A stretch of 5,811 bases of DNA, from assembly GCA_030698575.1 (NCBI GenBank), contig JAUYMQ010000095.1:1-5811 (forward strand), written 5' to 3'. The notes beneath the pieces were generated by a model that was not told where the DNA came from, did no database searches, and saw nothing but the letters and a program-made list of their open reading frames with translations. This stretch comes from Deltaproteobacteria bacterium (lineage in GTDB: Bacteria; JAUYMQ01). Below are positions 111-5,811 of this stretch, piece after piece; position 1 is the first letter of the stretch; the number at the start of each line of letters is the position of its first letter. The translations under genes were made by a program, and so were the position numbers.

Positions 111-671
111 CTACAAGAAAGTTGCAAGCTCACTCGGCGTCAGCCCGACCAGGAGCCGGATATAGCCATTGAGGTTGATGGCGCCGGCCGTGTTCATGAC
201 GAGCCGGAGCTTGAGGTAAAAGTCGTTGTCCGTGATCGGGTACTTCAGCGTGGCTTCGCTAGCCTGCCACGGGACCGGCTGCTCGCCCGAGAAGGGGATG
301 CCGCCGGCAGCCGCGGGCAGGAAGCCGTCGCTCCGGACCACGCTGGGGGCGGTCCAGATTCCCCTGCCCGAGGGAATGAGCGTGCTGGCGAGATTGATGC
401 CGCCCCCGCCGCTGTCGCTCGCGACGAACAGCTGGACGGCGGTGAGCGGATTTCCGCTCGCGTGCTGAATGCCCCAGTACAGCTTGTCGATGACGGCCTG
501 ACCACTGAAATGGGGCGAGACGACGACGTGGGAGGTATTGAGGCCGAAGGCCCGGATCATGAAGGGCCAGAGCACGACCTGCGGCGGGGGGACGGCCGCG
601 GCCTGGGCGAAGGCGGCCCCGCCGAGGCGCCCCGGTCGGAGCCTGGGGTAGGTGCCGGCGACGACGGGCAC
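111..671 (-). CDS. Unidentified beta-rich structural-operon protein, 186 aa
   Basis: This protein is not recognised. It begins at GTG (671-669), 4 nt after the stop of the 71-aa gene; no clear Shine-Dalgarno is seen, so translation probably depends on coupling. Residues 1-35 are Arg/Ala/Pro-rich. The rest alternates short hydrophobic strands with turns (SHVVVSPHF near 48-55, AVQLFVASD near 78-86, FYLKLRLVM near 151-159, GYIRLLVGL near 169-177), with a GGGG turn at 88-91. There is no signal peptide or convincing membrane span. Its place downstream of the capsid gene and its beta-rich texture suggest a minor virion protein such as a spike or vertex component, which is inference only. A later start at Met38 (MIRAFGLN) is possible. 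Confidence 0.75.
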   Translation of the reverse strand: MPVVAGTYPRLRPGRLGGAAFAQAAAVPPPQVVLWPFMIRAFGLNTSHVVVSPHFSGQAVIDKLYWGIQHASGNPLTAVQLFVASDSGGGGINLASTLIPSGRGIWTAPSVVRSDGFLPAAAGGIPFSGEQPVPWQASEATLKYPITDNDFYLKLRLVMNTAGAINLNGYIRLLVGLTPSELATFL

Positions 672-675
672 GGCG

Positions 676-891
676 CTACCGGAGCCGCGAGAAGCGCGGC
701 GCGGCGCCGATGCCGCTCGCGGCGCGGCTCACTTCGCTTTGCTCGCGGGCCTCGACCGCTTCGAGCTTTTCTCTGACCGCGCGCAGCGCGAGAAGCAGGC
801 CGGGGCCGGCCGGGTCGTCCAGCCCTTCGATCTGCTCTCGCATCAGCTTCAGCTGGGCGAGCAGGGCGCTCGCGGCGCCGGGCTTGGGCAC
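676..891 (-). CDS. Small helical protein, 71 aa, GTG start
   Basis: The gene starts with GTG at 891-889, one base after the TAA stop of the 153-aa gene (TAA-C-GTG), the same arrangement as the capsid gene and its follower. The product is mostly charged and helical: residues 5-24 and 31-56 read as two amphipathic helices (LAQLKLMREQIEGL; LLLALRAVREKLEAVEAREQ) around a DDPAGPG turn, followed by a basic Ser/Arg tail. There are no cysteines and no membrane span. A short coiled-coil-like protein inside a capsid operon could be a scaffold, linker or cement protein, but no family is recognised. It is short and lacks an independent ribosome site, so it is less certain than its neighbours. Confidence 0.65.
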   Translation of the reverse strand: MPKPGAASALLAQLKLMREQIEGLDDPAGPGLLLALRAVREKLEAVEAREQSEVSRAASGIGAAPRFSRLR

Positions 892-892
892 G

Positions 893-1354
893 TTACACTT
901 CGTGACCGAGGAAGTAGACGCGCACGGTGTCCGATGCCTGCTCGAGGAAGATCATCGGATACTTGCCGGCCGGCACCTCGAGGTAGTAGTCAACGTCATA
1001 GATCACGTTCGCCGTGGCGGCGAGGAGCAGATTGCCCGCCGGCGTGAGCGAGCCGTCAGACCCGACGGCATTAGCGGGGGCCACGGCCGAGCTGAAGGCA
1101 ACGTCGTCATCTCCGTACCCCGCGGTCCAGGGGGCGATGACCGCGCTCGCGGTGTAGAGGATCCTGGTGATGACCAGGGTTTTCCCGGCGGTGACTTGGT
1201 AGCCGGCTGCGGCGTTGATCTTCCGTAGCGTGGTGTACCGGACGACGCCCGCCGCCGCGGTGACTCCACCGCGAAGGGCCAGTGGTGTCTGACGTGTCGC
1301 TCGCTCGTGAAGCCCGAATTTCCAGACTTCCGGGAAGACGCGCGACAGGAGCAT
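893..1354 (-). CDS. Unidentified beta-rich structural-operon protein, 153 aa
   Basis: The start ATG (1354-1352) shares one base with the TGA stop of the preceding gene (TGATG), a classic reinitiation junction, so I prefer it to upstream in-frame starts. No strong Shine-Dalgarno precedes it. After a basic N-terminus (about residues 1-30) the protein is a run of predicted beta-strands: YQVTAGKTLVITRILYTA (52-69), NVIYDVDYYLEVPAGKYP (116-133) and DTVRVYFLG (142-150). The pattern would suit a small single jelly-roll or spike domain. In tailless jelly-roll viruses, penton or spike genes often lie beside the capsid gene, so a vertex role is a reasonable guess. No family motif is recognised. Confidence 0.82.
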   Translation of the reverse strand: MLLSRVFPEVWKFGLHERATRQTPLALRGGVTAAAGVVRYTTLRKINAAAGYQVTAGKTLVITRILYTASAVIAPWTAGYGDDDVAFSSAVAPANAVGSDGSLTPAGNLLLAATANVIYDVDYYLEVPAGKYPMIFLEQASDTVRVYFLGHEV

Positions 1355-1698
1355 CAGTAGCGCCCGATCACTTGCACGCTCGCCACCAGGCCGGCGACGA
1401 GGTTGTTGCCGAAGACGTACCGGGCATTGACATCCGGCGCCCACGTCTGACCGGCCCGGACGGTGATGGGGTCGGCGGCGACGTTGAGTTCCTTCCGGAG
1501 GTCGATCTGGGCGTCGTTGTTCTCGACGGAGATCTCCAGCCGGTTCGGCCGGCCGGTGAAGGCGAGCACGAGGGCGGCCGTCGTACCGAGCGCCACATAC
1601 CCGGCCGTCGCCTCGATCCCGCTGAAGCGGTCCGTGAGCACCCGCGGTTCACACCGCGGGCGCTCACGCTGCTGCGGATAGCCCCAGTGCTGGGGCAT
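1354..1698 (-). CDS. Unidentified small structural-operon protein, 114 aa
   Basis: The ATG at 1698-1696 lies one base after the capsid gene stop (TAA-C-ATG), with GAGGGG about 5 nt upstream inside the end of the capsid gene. This fixes the start and implies coupled translation with the capsid protein. Residues 1-27 are polar and basic (HWGYPQQRERPR), with a single Cys at 16. The remainder looks beta-rich: YVALGTTAALVLAF (34-47), RLEISVENNDAQIDL (53-67), and a hydrophobic C-terminal stretch VAGLVASVQVIGRY. The last part is too short and broken for a convincing membrane anchor. The position suggests a minor capsid or membrane-associated virion protein. The family is not recognised. Confidence 0.82.
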   Translation of the reverse strand: MPQHWGYPQQRERPRCEPRVLTDRFSGIEATAGYVALGTTAALVLAFTGRPNRLEISVENNDAQIDLRKELNVAADPITVRAGQTWAPDVNARYVFGNNLVAGLVASVQVIGRY

Positions 1699-1699
1699 G

Positions 1700-2683
1700 T
1701 TATCCCCTCGCGGTGACCCGCTCCAGCGGGTAGTACCGCACGTCCGTTGCCTCATCGCCCTGGCCGCGGATCTTCAGGTCGGCGGCCCCGGCGGTTTCCA
1801 TTTCATAGCTGCCGTCCCGCAGCGGGTCGAAGTCGAGGTAGGCGTACCCGCGGCTGCCCGTCGAGAGCGGCTGCACCACGTCGTCAGACGCCAGCTCGGC
1901 GCCGGCACCCTCGGAGGCCAGGTGCGTATGCCCGGCGTGCAGCGCGAACGCATTGCCCATCTGGTTGAGGAGCATCCCCGCCAGCGTCTCGAAGTCGCTG
2001 AGCGGGTAGTACTGCTCCACGTTGTCCTTGAGCAGCTTGACGGTGCCCCAGGAGAGCACCTCGTCGGAACTGGCGGCCAGGCCGGTGTCGAAGAGCAGGA
2101 TGCCGAGCAGCGGGTTGCCGATCGGCAGCGGGGCGTCGAACTGCCCGGCCACGCTCACGCGGGCCTGGCGCACATACTTCAAGTACTCGGTGGGCGTGGA
2201 GTCGATCAGCTCCACCGCCTCGAGGCTGAAGTTGATGTCATCGTACGCGGCCCCGTCCGCGCCCGCGTCCATCTCGAAGCGCAGATTTCCGCGCGAGGTC
2301 GCGGGGAAACACGAGTCCGGGTCATACATCCGCTTCCCGAGGCAGAGCGGGAACACGAGCGAGCGCACCCCGTCGTTGAGGTCGGTGATGTGGGACCACC
2401 CGGGGAAGGCGCGCTGATACACGGCGTTGAGCACCATGAGGTCGCGCAAGCTCCCGGAGATGATCTGCTCGCCCTTGTGGAGCACGCGCACCCCGGTGAT
2501 CTGGGTGATCGCGTCGTCGATGGCGCTGTAGGTGGCGATGGCGGCCGGGTCCACGCTCGTCAGCTGAAGCCGCAACAGCAGGACGCTGAGCGGGTTGACG
2601 GGCAGGTCGAACGGCGTGATGGAGGCCGACGCCACCAGGTCGGTGTTCGGCTGGACGATGGAGTGAAGGAACCGCTTGCCCAT
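1700..2683 (-). CDS. Probable double jelly-roll major capsid protein (PM2 P2 / FLiP type)
   Basis: This 327-aa protein starts at ATG 2683-2681, with a purine-rich GAGGGAGACG about 9 nt upstream. No signal peptide, membrane span or catalytic motif is visible. Its texture matches capsid proteins carrying the P2 N-terminal domain: strand LSVLLLRLQLTSVDP (32-46), a short Asp-containing loop, ITGVRVLHKGEQIISGSLRDL (62-82), a second strand set around FPLCLGKRMYDPDSCFPA (111-128), NLRFEMDAG (133-141), then a second-half fold ending in YAYLDFDPLRDG (280-291). Two jelly rolls of roughly 160 residues each fit the length, which exceeds PM2 P2 and is close to FLiP-like capsid proteins. It is the largest gene of a packed operon of small unknown proteins, as expected for a tailless icosahedral virus. 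The assignment is by recognised pattern, without alignment. Confidence 0.75.
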   Translation of the reverse strand: MGKRFLHSIVQPNTDLVASASITPFDLPVNPLSVLLLRLQLTSVDPAAIATYSAIDDAITQITGVRVLHKGEQIISGSLRDLMVLNAVYQRAFPGWSHITDLNDGVRSLVFPLCLGKRMYDPDSCFPATSRGNLRFEMDAGADGAAYDDINFSLEAVELIDSTPTEYLKYVRQARVSVAGQFDAPLPIGNPLLGILLFDTGLAASSDEVLSWGTVKLLKDNVEQYYPLSDFETLAGMLLNQMGNAFALHAGHTHLASEGAGAELASDDVVQPLSTGSRGYAYLDFDPLRDGSYEMETAGAADLKIRGQGDEATDVRYYPLERVTARG

Positions 2684-2707
2684 GGTGGTCTCGTCTCCCT
2701 CGCGCGC

Positions 2708-3133
2708 TTAGCGCATCTTCAGCGCGTGCAGCGCCTGGGTGATGGGCGTGATCCGGCCGATGTTCGACGGATCGCCAGCAGGCCGCCGGGCCGGCAGGTC
2801 AGTCCGGCCGATCAGCTCCAGGTACGGGCCGATGCCGGCCTGGAACTCCGGTCCCGCCACCGCGGCGCCCTGCGCGTAGCGTGCGGGGCCTTTCTCGACC
2901 GTGTTCTTCTTCCACTTCGCGGTGCCCGCCTTGGTGACGCCCTTCTCGAAGCGGCCCGCGGCGGCGGCCGCCGTGACGGCCTGGCGGTAGCTGGGGCCGG
3001 CAGCCACCGCGGCGCCCGACCAGTCCTTGCTGGTCGTCTCGACGCCCTTCTGGTAGTCGGGCGAGGCAGCGGCCGTGCGCCGCGTCCATCGCTCGGCGGT
3101 GTCTCCGAGTGACTTGACCTTCGGGGTTGGCAT
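2708..3133 (-). CDS. Repetitive Ala-rich virion-associated protein next to the capsid gene, 141 aa
   Basis: ATG 3133-3131 is chosen over an in-frame start at 3220 because GAGGAGGG lies just upstream, and the longer start would include promoter-like DNA. This is the first gene of the structural operon, 24 nt before the capsid gene. Residues 13-104 contain degenerate repeats built on an aromatic residue followed by Gly/Ala-Val: PDYQKGV (25-31), PSYRQAV (47-53), RFEKGV (61-66), ARYAQGA (84-90), PEFQAGI (95-101), interleaved with Trp16, Trp38 and Trp74. The C-terminus has PAGDPSN and a short helix. From memory, similar repetitive proteins sit beside capsid genes in metagenomic viral contigs, with no established role. 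A virion-interior, scaffold or DNA-binding function is possible. Confidence 0.82.
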   Translation of the reverse strand: MPTPKVKSLGDTAERWTRRTAAASPDYQKGVETTSKDWSGAAVAAGPSYRQAVTAAAAAGRFEKGVTKAGTAKWKKNTVEKGPARYAQGAAVAGPEFQAGIGPYLELIGRTDLPARRPAGDPSNIGRITPITQALHALKMR

Positions 3134-3183: not shown

Positions 3184-3219
3184 TGACGGAAGTGTCGGCC
3201 AGGCTGACACTTCCTGTCA
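3184..3219. promoter_or_regulatory. Inverted-repeat operator or enhancer-type site
   Basis: GGAAGTGTC (3188-3196) and GACACTTCC (3206-3214) are perfect complements separated by 9 nt. TGAC/GTCA flanks (3184-3187, 3216-3219) extend the symmetry past one unpaired T at 3215. The dyad overlaps the TTGACA box of the leftward promoter. Its centre is about 96 bp upstream of the predicted start of the rightward sigma-54 transcript, a normal distance for a bacterial enhancer-binding protein site. It may serve one or both promoters. Confidence 0.55.
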
Positions 3220-3220
3220 A
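3197..3220 (-). promoter_or_regulatory. Candidate sigma-70-type promoter for the structural operon
   Basis: On the minus strand a perfect TTGACA lies at 3220-3215. An 18-nt spacer puts GACACT (3196-3191) at the -10 position, a poor match at 3 of 6 positions. It is about 60 nt upstream of the first structural gene. The -35 and the spacer are embedded in the dyad, which suggests repression or activator dependence. The -10 assignment is weak. Confidence 0.35.
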
Positions 3221-3269
3221 GCCTTGGTTCGCGTGACTCAGCAGGTGGTTGATTTCATTGGACTCTTCG

Positions 3270-3286
3270 CTGGCACGGCTCCTGCA
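3270..3286 (+). promoter_or_regulatory. Sigma-54 (RpoN) -24/-12 promoter for the rightward operon
   Basis: CTGGCACGGCTCCTGCA matches the -24 element exactly (YTGGCACG) and four of five bases of the -12 element (TTGCW). The invariant GG (3272-3273) and GC (3284-3285) are separated by exactly 10 nt, the spacing RpoN requires. Transcription would begin near 3297, just before an AAGGAGG ribosome site and the ATG at 3324. Such promoters need an enhancer-binding ATPase, and the dyad upstream is a candidate binding site. Confidence 0.65.
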
Positions 3287-3323
3287 TTTTCAATGGGGCA
3301 AGGGACCAAGGAGGCCCGAGGAG

Positions 3324-3503
3324 ATGGCGAGTTGGGGACGCGGTGGGATGGTCGGGGTGAGGAAGGCGATCTACACGCACGAGCGCACGCTGCGCCTCGC
3401 GTCGGTGATCCTGGCCGACGAGCACGGGGACAAGCACGCGCCCGGGACGCGGCGGGATCTCTGCCCGAAGTGCGCGGGGGCGCGGCGGGAGGAGGCGCGA
3501 TGA
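3324..3503 (+). CDS. Small possible zinc-binding protein, 59 aa
   Basis: AAGGAGG at 3308-3314, 9 nt before ATG 3324, is the strongest ribosome site in the window and fixes this start against an earlier in-frame one at 3249. The product is basic and reads VRKAIYTHERTLRLASVILA in its centre. It ends with His34, His38, Cys47 and Cys50 (HxxxH then CPKC), a plausible zinc site, followed by a charged tail. It is the first gene of the rightward operon, directly behind the sigma-54 promoter, and its TGA stop overlaps a possible ATG of the next gene. No family is recognised. A small regulator or nucleic-acid-binding protein is a guess from size, charge and Cys/His content. Confidence 0.65.
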   Translation: MASWGRGGMVGVRKAIYTHERTLRLASVILADEHGDKHAPGTRRDLCPKCAGARREEAR

Positions 3504-3799
3504 GATGCGGGGGTGTTGTGAGGGTCGGTGAGATTAGCTTCGAGCGTGCGCTACAGGAGGCGTCGAGCGTGAACACGATCAAGCGCCCGCGGACGCGCCC
3601 GCGGGTGAAGTCGGTCAACTTCCGGTCCTTCTGGTGGCTGGTTCGCCGGCAGGCCGCGCTACAGATCATCGCCGGCCCGCTGTCGCACCTGGTCTCGGAT
3701 GCCTTCGTCCGGTGGGTACTTCATCATCGCCCGGATGCGCTGCGCGATCGTGTCGCGCGGACGCTCCGGCAGAAACCAGAACGGAGAATCTACCCATGA
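3500..3799 (+). CDS. Small basic protein of unknown function, 99 aa (or 76 aa)
   Basis: ATG 3500 overlaps the previous stop (ATGA), with GGAGG repeats 4-7 nt upstream. A second start, GTG 3569 (76 aa), has AGGAGG 8 nt upstream. The first 23 codons use third-position A/T more often than the rest, which favours the shorter form. From residue 24 the protein is strongly basic (NTIKRPRTRPRVKSVNFR), with a hydrophobic/aromatic helix-like block FWWLVRRQAALQIIAGPLSHLV (about 44-65) and a second helix RDRVARTLRQKPERR. It may bind nucleic acid or sit at a membrane surface. It is not recognised. It is translationally coupled to both neighbours. Confidence 0.6.
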   Translation: MRCGGVVRVGEISFERALQEASSVNTIKRPRTRPRVKSVNFRSFWWLVRRQAALQIIAGPLSHLVSDAFVRWVLHHRPDALRDRVARTLRQKPERRIYP

Positions 3800-4092
3800 G
3801 CATGACAGCATCCCTTCAAGCGAACCTCCCCGGATTCCTTCGCTCGGCGGCGCTGCCTGACATCGCCCTGGTGCTCGAAGCGGCGGCCGTCGAGCTGCGC
3901 GCGCGGGCGATGCCGGGGACGGTGGAGCTCGCGCATGCCGCTCACGTCCTGCGCCTCTACGTCTCCGCGTTCATCTCGGCCGGCGTCCCGATCTTCTCGG
4001 GTGACTGCGCGCCGGCGACGTGCATCTGTCTCGCTGGTCCCCTTGGTGCGCGCGTCCGTGGGTGGCATCGCCTCGACTGCCCGGCAAAGTAA
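3796..4092 (+). CDS. Unidentified small protein with C-terminal Cys/His cluster, 98 aa
   Basis: ATG 3796 overlaps the TGA of the previous gene (ATGA), with a modest GGAG about 10 nt upstream; a second Met at codon 3 is an alternative. The N-terminal two thirds are helical and Ala/Leu-rich (LPDIALVLEAAAVELRARA, 20-38; ELAHAAHVLRLYVSAFI, 44-60). The end holds Cys71, Cys76, Cys78, His91 and Cys95, a possible metal site. This is the last gene of the rightward operon and is followed by several hairpins. No family is recognised. With the 59-aa protein it makes two genes in one operon carrying candidate zinc clusters. Confidence 0.62.
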   Translation: MSMTASLQANLPGFLRSAALPDIALVLEAAAVELRARAMPGTVELAHAAHVLRLYVSAFISAGVPIFSGDCAPATCICLAGPLGARVRGWHRLDCPAK

Positions 4093-4103
4093 CCCACCGT
4101 CTC

Positions 4104-4126
4104 GACCGGGCGCCCGCGGCCCGGTC
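4104..4126 (+). repeat. Hairpin just after the rightward operon
   Basis: GACCGGGC (4104-4111) and GCCCGGTC (4119-4126) form a perfect 8-bp stem with a 7-nt loop, starting 11 nt after the last stop codon. No T-run follows. It may stabilise or weakly terminate the transcript. Confidence 0.4.
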
Positions 4127-4145
4127 CTTCGCTGCCCGGTCTTCC

Positions 4146-4197
4146 GGGCGCGCGTTTCTTCGGGCTCGCGCGCTTCGCCGTCTACAAACGCGCGCCC
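4146..4197. repeat. Perfect 12-nt inverted repeat with a 28-nt spacer
   Basis: GGGCGCGCGTTT (4146-4157) is exactly complementary to AAACGCGCGCCC (4186-4197). It lies in gene-free DNA between the rightward operon and the DnaA-like boxes. Alternating CG favours chance symmetry, but the AAA/TTT ends make the match less trivial. Confidence 0.45.
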
Positions 4198-4261
4198 TGG
4201 CCCGATGGAGACCCTTCTCCTCCGTCCCTCCCCTGGTCTGGTGTTTCCTCAGGGGGAGGCC

Positions 4262-4295
4262 GGCGGCGCCGGGGGGCGAAGCCCCCCAGGCCGCC
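4262..4295. repeat. GC-rich hairpin with GAA loop
   Basis: GGGGGGC (4271-4277) pairs with GCCCCCC (4281-4287) across a GAA triloop. GGCGGC (4262-4267) pairs with GCCGCC (4290-4295) beyond a small internal bulge, giving about 13 bp in all. No T-tract follows. Confidence 0.5.
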
Positions 4296-4592: not shown

Positions 4593-5408
4593 TTAGCCCT
4601 CGTGGGGCGAGCCGGCCGAGGCCGTCGCGCTGTGCTTCGCCACGATCAGTTGGTGGTGGCAGTCGAGGCACAGCCGAAGCCCGCGGGTATGCTCGAAGGC
4701 CGTCAGCTCGTCGCACCACTCGCAGGGGTAGGTGATGACGAAGCTCGCCCGCGCGGCCGCAAGCTCGGTGATGGTTCGCTCGTTGCTGATGATCCGCGTC
4801 CGGTCGGACAGGTAGTGCGCGCGCCATTCGTTCACGACGGCCGCGGTGGCGCCGCCCCGTTCCGCTTCGCGGATCAGGTCGCGCCGGTACGGCTCGTGGT
4901 CAATGTCGCTGAGGATCGCCACCACGGCCAGCGGCAGCCGTTTCTCCTCGACCGCGGCTTGCAGGTCGGCGGGCAGGGCGAGGAGCTCGAGCCGTTGCGA
5001 CACCCACGATGGGGTGCGCCGGAACAGCCGCGAGAGCGCCGCGAGCGAGTCGCCGCGGTCGCGGAAGCGCGCGAGCGCGGCCGCCTCTTCCATCGGGTTG
5101 AGGTCGGTGCGCTGCAAGTTTTCGCTGACGGCTGCAAGGAGCGGGTCGAAGTCTTGCGGGAACACGCGCGCGTGAATGCTCGGCCACTGGAGCAGCCGCG
5201 CCGCGAGCAGCCGGCGGTGGCCCCAGACGATTTCATACGCCCCGGATGGATCGGGGCCGCGTACGCCGACGGGCTGATGCAGCCCCTCGGCGGACATACT
5301 GTCCGCCAGCTCCCCGAGCGCGCCTTGATCCATCGTCGCGCGCAATCGGTGGCTCGGTTCCAGAATCAACGCGAGCGGCAAACTGGAGTAAACCGTTTCG
5401 GTCTGCAT
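4593..5408 (-). CDS. ParB-family DNA-binding protein with C-terminal zinc-ribbon-like motif
   Basis: ATG 5408-5406 is chosen because GGAGG lies 6 nt upstream; a longer in-frame start at 5441 has no such support. The 271-aa product has the ParB/Spo0J order: box GLHQPVGVR (42-50), EIVWGHRRLLAARLL (59-73, with GHRR where GERR is usual), ENLQRTDLNPMEEAAA (96-111), then a helix-turn-helix with SLAALSRLFRRTPSWVSQRL (121-140). ParB proteins bind parS-like sites to segregate plasmids or regulate transcription. Unlike typical ParB, the C-terminal part carries Cys229, Cys232, Cys247 and Cys250 (CEWC and CLDC), a likely zinc ribbon replacing the usual dimer domain. No ParA is in the window, so it may instead be a regulator or replication factor. 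Confidence 0.88.
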   Translation of the reverse strand: MQTETVYSSLPLALILEPSHRLRATMDQGALGELADSMSAEGLHQPVGVRGPDPSGAYEIVWGHRRLLAARLLQWPSIHARVFPQDFDPLLAAVSENLQRTDLNPMEEAAALARFRDRGDSLAALSRLFRRTPSWVSQRLELLALPADLQAAVEEKRLPLAVVAILSDIDHEPYRRDLIREAERGGATAAVVNEWRAHYLSDRTRIISNERTITELAAARASFVITYPCEWCDELTAFEHTRGLRLCLDCHHQLIVAKHSATASAGSPHEG

Positions 5409-5580
5409 TGGGCACCTCCGGGAAGCTGACGAGGAACGCACGGCCGGGCGCCCGCGTGATGATGCAGTATTCCCGCGGCCCGGTCTGAAGCTCGCGGACC
5501 AGATCCGCGGGGATGCAGAACGCAGTCGCGCGCCCGATCTTCCAGAGCCGGTGCAGCGAGGTCGGAAGGTTCAGAGCCAT
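5233..5580 (-). CDS. AbrB/SpoVT-like small DNA-binding protein with out-of-frame overlap tail
   Basis: Residues 11-53 (RLWKIGRATAFCIPADLVRELQ, then EYCIITRAPGRAFLVSF) read like a SpoVT-AbrB swapped-hairpin domain, found in transition regulators and antitoxins; members are often 50-90 aa. The ATG at 5580-5578 has no Shine-Dalgarno. TACATT ends 9 nt before it, so a leaderless transcript is possible. The frame stays open to 5233, giving 115 aa and overlapping parB by 176 nt from codon 58 on. That tail is Arg/Gly-rich, as expected from reading parB out of frame, so it may be incidental or reflect a sequencing frameshift. It probably regulates its own operon with parB; no partner toxin was seen. 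Confidence 0.6.
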   Translation of the reverse strand: MALNLPTSLHRLWKIGRATAFCIPADLVRELQTGPREYCIITRAPGRAFLVSFPEVPNADRNGLLQFAARVDSGTEPPIARDDGSRRARGAGGQYVRRGAASARRRTRPRSIRGV

Positions 5581-5738: not shown

Positions 5739-5787
5739 GGGGCGCCTGGGGCTCACGTGCCTCAACAACGTGAGCCCCAGGCGTCCC
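5739..5787. repeat. Long hairpin with TCACGT/ACGTGA half-sites
   Basis: CGCCTGGGGCTCACGT (5743-5758) and ACGTGAGCCCCAGGCG (5768-5783) form a perfect 16-bp stem with a 9-nt loop, extended by one G-T and three more pairs to about 20 bp. TCACGT and ACGTGA facing each other resemble the halves of bacterial parS (TTTCACGTGAAA) split by a spacer. This is suggestive given the nearby ParB gene. Confidence 0.7.
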
Positions 5788-5811
5788 CTTTTCTTACAGA
5801 GTAAGAAAAGG
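5787..5811. repeat. Perfect 11-bp hairpin ending at the window edge
   Basis: CCTTTTCTTAC (5787-5797) and GTAAGAAAAGG (5801-5811) are exact complements with a 3-nt loop AGA. The stem may continue beyond the window. It shares TTTTCTT/AAGAAAA arms, loop size and layout with the hairpin at 5711-5735. Confidence 0.7.

Follow-up and report, generated by a model that had tools for sequence, protein, structure and literature searches.

A small, GC-rich metagenomic contig raises the question of what the 327-aa product of a gene at positions 1700 to 2683 is, and what kind of genetic element encodes it. The stretch of DNA analysed here (the window) is the entire contig C116 (5,811 bp, 68.2% GC), a member of a 4.13-Mb metagenomic bin of 653 contigs that is the sole genome of its phylum in the genome collection used. 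According to the original prediction, this open reading frame (ORF) specifies a divergent double jelly-roll (DJR) capsid protein of the PM2 P2/FLiP type. Its coordinates, 1700-2683 on the minus strand, are exact; the ORF begins with ATG, is preceded by a plausible ribosome-binding site, and has GC contents at its three codon positions (0.65/0.43/0.94) that are expected for a genuine gene in GC-rich DNA. Codon-position GC backs the minus-strand genes of the window generally; a 471-aa ORF on the plus strand (1697-3112; 0.92/0.48/0.66) was rejected as a shadow of the capsid gene. Because full-length homologs exist, the 327-aa ORF is far beyond chance and is a real gene. The features assigned to the window are as follows.

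83 to 111, no strand assigned: inverted repeat just 3′ of p186, a possible transcription terminator
111 to 671, minus strand: p186, 186 aa, a possible spike or minor capsid protein (from position and a GC3 of 0.89)
676 to 891, minus strand: p71, 71 aa (from position and a GC3 of 0.89)
893 to 1354, minus strand: p153, 153 aa, a possible penton or minor capsid protein, by position only
1354 to 1698, minus strand: p114, 114 aa, a possible minor capsid protein, by position only
1700 to 2683, minus strand: candidate major capsid protein, 327 aa, predicted double jelly-roll (from homologs and a model)
2708 to 3133, minus strand: p141, small basic protein, 141 aa, first gene of the operon (from homologs)
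3324 to 3503, 3500 to 3799 and 3796 to 4092, plus strand: three small divergent ORFs between the capsid operon and the ParB/AbrB end
4593 to 5408, minus strand: ParB-like protein combining ParB_N and HTH_ParB domains with a tail rich in cysteine
5233 to 5580, minus strand: AbrB-like ORF, 115 aa, overlapping the ParB start (from a sequence pattern and the same overlap in relatives)

The operon runs along the minus strand in the order p141, capsid gene, p114, p153, p71 and p186, followed by the inverted repeat. The capsid gene, which had been proposed to head this operon, is thus its second member, behind the 141-aa gene. The accompanying description of the accessory genes as entirely unrecognised was too strong, since the ParB-like protein is known to Pfam (2e-9 and 2.2e-6) and PHROGs (5e-25) and is homologous to the ParB proteins of the relatives described below, and p141 likewise has relatives. 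For p114 there is a weak, sub-threshold Pfam match to bPH_10 (E 0.003). No significant match in Pfam or PHROGs was obtained for p153 or for the ORFs at 3500-3799 and 3796-4092, and the AbrB-like ORF has no Pfam match. Near the right contig end, the region 5743-5811 contains perfect inverted repeats (CGCCTGGGGCTCACGT...), which are likely to form hairpins where the assembly stopped.

No relatives of the capsid protein were found in Pfam, PHROGs, PDB sequences, INPHARED phages or PLSDB plasmids, and scans of IMG/VR with capsid and p141 patterns revealed none, the stretches returned by one scan being unrelated. Weak matches in genomes (e.g. L005 and L006, E 0.004-0.009) were rejected as lying within ordinary host genes. 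Relatives were reached via the neighbouring p141, the capsid candidate alone having found none. A p141 homolog (E 7.5e-28) occurs in an unrelated bin, on a contig of 6,424 bp, and a two-sequence p141 alignment searched against 84,980 species genomes recovered loci in three bins, five in all and including this first contig. Nine contigs of the Phycisphaerales bin CSMAG_1251 (G290) carry p141 matches, one of which (C64) is weak, and in 7 of the nine p141 is directly followed by a gene for a homolog, complete or partial, of the 327-aa protein (alignment A4); L083 is a further contig encoding such a homolog. Full-length capsid homologs, which reside in small contigs of the Phycisphaerales bin, share about 31-34% identity, as exemplified by that of L045 (BLASTP E 2e-40, with 31% identity across residues 4-323). 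In genome bins p141 is rare (2/386 genomes searched), and wherever a relative has both genes, that for p141 immediately precedes that for the capsid protein.

Two of these relatives, L060 and L064, possess terminal overlaps of 141 bp and are therefore circular, with lengths of 7,855 and 7,833 bp. Common to the relatives are genes for p141, the capsid protein, two further proteins (~154 and ~161 aa), a nuclease and a tyrosine recombinase, together with ParB and an AbrB-like protein; the recombinase is recognised by Pfam in L062 at 8.6e-31. The nuclease (~145 aa) exhibits the motifs D, ExK and QxxxY (alignment A6) and weak Pfam matches to NucS_C and HSDR_N, both of which are PD-(D/E)XK folds. 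None of the window proteins encoded 3′ of the capsid gene matched these 154- and 161-aa proteins significantly.

Several observations concern the Phycisphaerales bin itself. The occurrence of nine p141-matching contigs in one metagenome-assembled genome points to a community of related small viruses that were binned together. Positions 6017-6571 of one virus contig, L066 (G290:C123), code for 184 aa of DNA gyrase B (Pfam 1.8e-9), a fragment with 76% identity to the complete gyrB that the bin also contains; it might have been captured from a host or left as a scar of integration, and it hints that the host is a planctomycete. The circular 7.8-kb genome L064 encodes a SnoaL-like cyclase-fold protein (341-850, minus strand; Pfam 3.9e-13), possibly an auxiliary metabolic gene.

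The fold of the 327-aa protein was assessed by structure prediction. The model obtained from the single sequence by AlphaFold is poor (pLDDT 36), and its best PDB matches are nonetheless DJR proteins (E 3e-3). When three relatives were added (alignment A5, four sequences), AF2 produced a model that is still of low confidence (pLDDT 49, pTM 0.51), with the C-terminal half the worst. In a Foldseek search of the PDB with this four-sequence model, ranks 1-42 are occupied throughout by DJR capsid or scaffold proteins, led by STIV (3e-9) and FLiP (3.6e-9) and including PM2 P2 (2.5e-8), and in a library of predicted virus structures Bacillus phage Wip1 (4e-12) and STIV (9e-11) are on top. Comparison by VIA-align returned STIV (Z 12.4, 263 residues aligned, 5.1 A), PM2 P2 (Z 12.2, 230, 4.9 A), PRD1 (1w8x; Z 12.2, 264, 5.4 A), phiCjT23 (Z 11.8, 224, 4.1 A) and FLiP (Z 10.1, 239, 5.1 A), with matches spanning residues 1-327 and the first 48 rows consisting exclusively of DJR capsid or scaffold proteins. 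A profile-against-profile comparison of the two capsid halves starts in register and is suggestive, at most, of an internal duplication (E 0.07). The fold assignment is strong despite the weak second half of the model, because the list of matches is consistent and the two models agree. The predicted capsid identity is supported in that the four-sequence model matches DJR capsids over its full length, PM2 P2 and FLiP among them, and in that no profile match to a non-capsid family was obtained. On the evidence of these models, we consider with high confidence that the 327-aa product is a DJR capsid protein.

DJR proteins also exist in cells, and it is conceivable, if very improbable, that the gene encodes a DUF2961/GH172-like carbohydrate enzyme or another double jelly-roll protein that does not form capsids. 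The first VIA-align row outside the DJR capsid and scaffold proteins, at rank 49 (Z 7.3), is indeed a GH172 enzyme, a member of the DUF2961 family, which is a proposed cellular relative of DJR capsids. However, this score is far below those of the capsids (Z 12), and the 327-aa protein has no Pfam match. Moreover, the gene is always found in small, partly circular elements beside p141, mostly together with ParB and recombinase genes, and circular genomes of capsid-compatible size that contain it have already been found among the relatives.

Given a DJR capsid protein, to which viruses is it related? The models give the proposed PM2 P2/FLiP type no preference over other DJR viruses: both proteins are structural matches, but STIV and PRD1 match equally well, and comparison of the family with the capsid protein of FLiP revealed no detectable sequence similarity (hhalign probability 0.1%). 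FLiP and phiCjT23 share with the window virus and its relatives the DJR fold and a small circular genome, and FLiP also lacks a packaging ATPase, whereas both encode a rolling-circle Rep and have different neighbouring genes. PM2 and its prophage group (Corticoviridae) share the DJR fold of P2 and differ in having an FtsK-like packaging ATPase, none of which was found in the window, which is incomplete, or in the circular relatives. STIV and the tectiviruses (PRD1, Wip1, GC1) match the fold equally well or better (Z 12.4 for STIV; E 4e-12 for Wip1, the best predicted structure), but they too have a packaging ATPase, and their gene sets differ. No Walker A motif indicative of such an ATPase was detected in the incomplete window or in the circular L060, and no HUH motif of a rolling-circle Rep in the window, L060 or L064; the one Walker A match, in L064, falls in a short frame that seems spurious and is not convincing.

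These comparisons make it unlikely that the window derives from a lipid-containing phage of the FLiP/PM2 type, equipped either with a Rep, like the ssDNA phage FLiP, or with a packaging ATPase, like the dsDNA phage PM2. The presence of PM2 P2, phiCjT23 and FLiP among the structural matches, the similar genome size and the lack of an ATPase in FLiP are what such an origin would lead one to expect. Against it stand the equally good matches to STIV and PRD1, the missing sequence similarity to FLiP, the lack of a convincing Rep or ATPase in the circular L060 and L064, and the ParB, AbrB-like and nuclease genes, which are outside the FLiP/PM2 core. Instead of kinship with PM2 and FLiP, the gene content points to the ATPase-less Odin group.

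The Odin group comprises unclassified DJR viruses without a packaging ATPase; in their genomes of 7-11 kb the capsid gene follows a conserved small one, and ParB, PD-(D/E)XK nucleases and AbrB are also encoded, with an integrase and an M15 peptidase appearing sporadically (Yutin et al., 2018; PMC5894146). A virus of Ca. Odinarchaeum, Huginn, belongs to this group (PMC9246712). In a 2021 study the Odin group was kept unclassified, outside the phylogeny, and Phyre2 models of its capsid proteins did not match DJR structures. The assignment of the window virus to the Odin type is made because the gene set of its relatives equals the list published for this group: a capsid gene preceded by a conserved small one, no convincing packaging ATPase, a ParB gene, a putative AbrB-like gene and, in the relatives, a PD-(D/E)XK-like nuclease and a tyrosine recombinase. 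The Odin genomes are circular and 7-11 kb long, and the relatives L060 and L064 are circles of ~7.85 kb. Within the window itself, membership rests on p141, the capsid protein, ParB and the AbrB-like ORF, because the nuclease and the recombinase are absent from it. From this comparison of gene content with published descriptions, we regard an Odin-type virus as likely.

The window also departs from the group as described. It has 68% GC, and its bin is alone in its phylum within the genome collection used. By position, p141 would be the counterpart of Odin 'cons1', an equivalence that is not certain because the protein contains conserved polar residues (D34, R58, K61, R82, R113, D118, N121 and R124; alignment A3), whereas the authors who described cons1 saw none (PMC5894146). 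We read the virus as an apparently new and distant Odin-group member, from a GC-rich host bin.

How complete is the viral genome in the window? In the relatives the order of genes is capsid operon, nuclease, AbrB-ParB. In the window, the capsid operon runs out to the left edge and AbrB-ParB starts from the right edge, so that the order fits a circle from which the nuclease region is missing. The window's bin contains another contig, C386 (L081; 3,280 bp, 70.7% GC), which encodes a nuclease-family protein homologous to that of the relatives (E 1.9e-15), a product weakly resembling M15 peptidases (89 aa), a YvrJ-family membrane protein, a lipoprotein-like product and a 353-aa protein. Its tetranucleotide use agrees with that of the window at 0.968, a weak discriminator given that a further contig of the bin reaches 0.949, and no end overlap was found. 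C386 may be the missing part of the window virus, or it may represent a sibling virus.

An incomplete gene complement might also signify a defective provirus remnant, or a satellite dependent on the capsids of another virus, rather than a functional virus. The window lacks both the nuclease and the recombinase of its relatives and shows no terminal overlap, as a remnant might. Its genes, on the other hand, are all intact with strong GC3 signatures, and C386, with its nuclease-family and lysis-like genes, could be the missing part; we accordingly judge a remnant or satellite to be improbable.

We therefore favour the interpretation that the window holds only part of the genome of an icosahedral DNA virus, small and tailless, that infects bacteria and is of the ATPase-less Odin type, an explanation that, taken as a whole, we consider probable. 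Each capsid protein chain is predicted to fold into two upright jelly rolls, and, by analogy with known DJR capsids, three chains would come together as pseudo-hexameric capsomers, the units from which the shell is tiled. A circular genome of about 8-10 kb is probable, circularity having been shown for two relatives. The small proteins encoded after the capsid gene may serve as penton, spike or membrane-linking components, and AbrB and ParB would act as regulators. In the group, the tyrosine recombinase of the relatives is likely to mediate integration or dimer resolution, and their PD-(D/E)XK-like nuclease would process the genome for replication or encapsidation. p141, in place of an ATPase, would most likely condense DNA or guide the assembly of the capsid around it. 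The protein is strongly basic in the window (pI 10.3, charge +10.6), and its charge is +9 to +15 in nine relatives. That p141 acts in encapsidation instead of a motor is a plausible proposal to which we assign slightly less than an even chance.

The pairing of p141 with the nuclease is also observed beside other proteins. Both genes accompany a 263-267-aa protein in L028 and L043, and in L065 (G290:C36), a 10.5-kb contig that also carries nuclease, ParB and recombinase genes, a 359-aa protein (3203-4282) occupies the position of the capsid gene directly after p141. No sequence link was found between either of these proteins and the 327-aa DJR family. The protein of L028 (2196-2987, minus strand) and L043 (3672-4475, plus strand) is homologous (hhalign probability 98%) to that encoded at 1767-2483 of MW202783.1 (L086), a circular genome of 3,063 bp filed as Inoviridae sp. 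ctULK797. This 238-267-aa family is possibly an unrelated capsid protein, and the Inoviridae label is doubtful. An extension of this idea, which we offer as speculative and rather doubtful, is that p141 and the PD-(D/E)XK-like nuclease constitute a portable, ATPase-free encapsidation module that is associated with at least three unrelated capsid candidates (the 327-aa DJR protein, the 359-aa protein of L065 and the 263-267-aa protein of L028 and L043). If true, this would describe a virus lineage defined by its mode of packing DNA and not by its capsid.

The scans made here revealed no relatives of these viruses in IMG/VR, INPHARED or PHROGs, suggesting that virus catalogues may undercount them. 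The predicted structure of a capsid protein from an Odin-like genome now matches DJR proteins, where the models of 2021 failed. Viruses of the Odin group, which rank with the smallest DJR viruses known, have no packaging motor, and p141 and the nuclease offer testable candidates for the missing packaging function.
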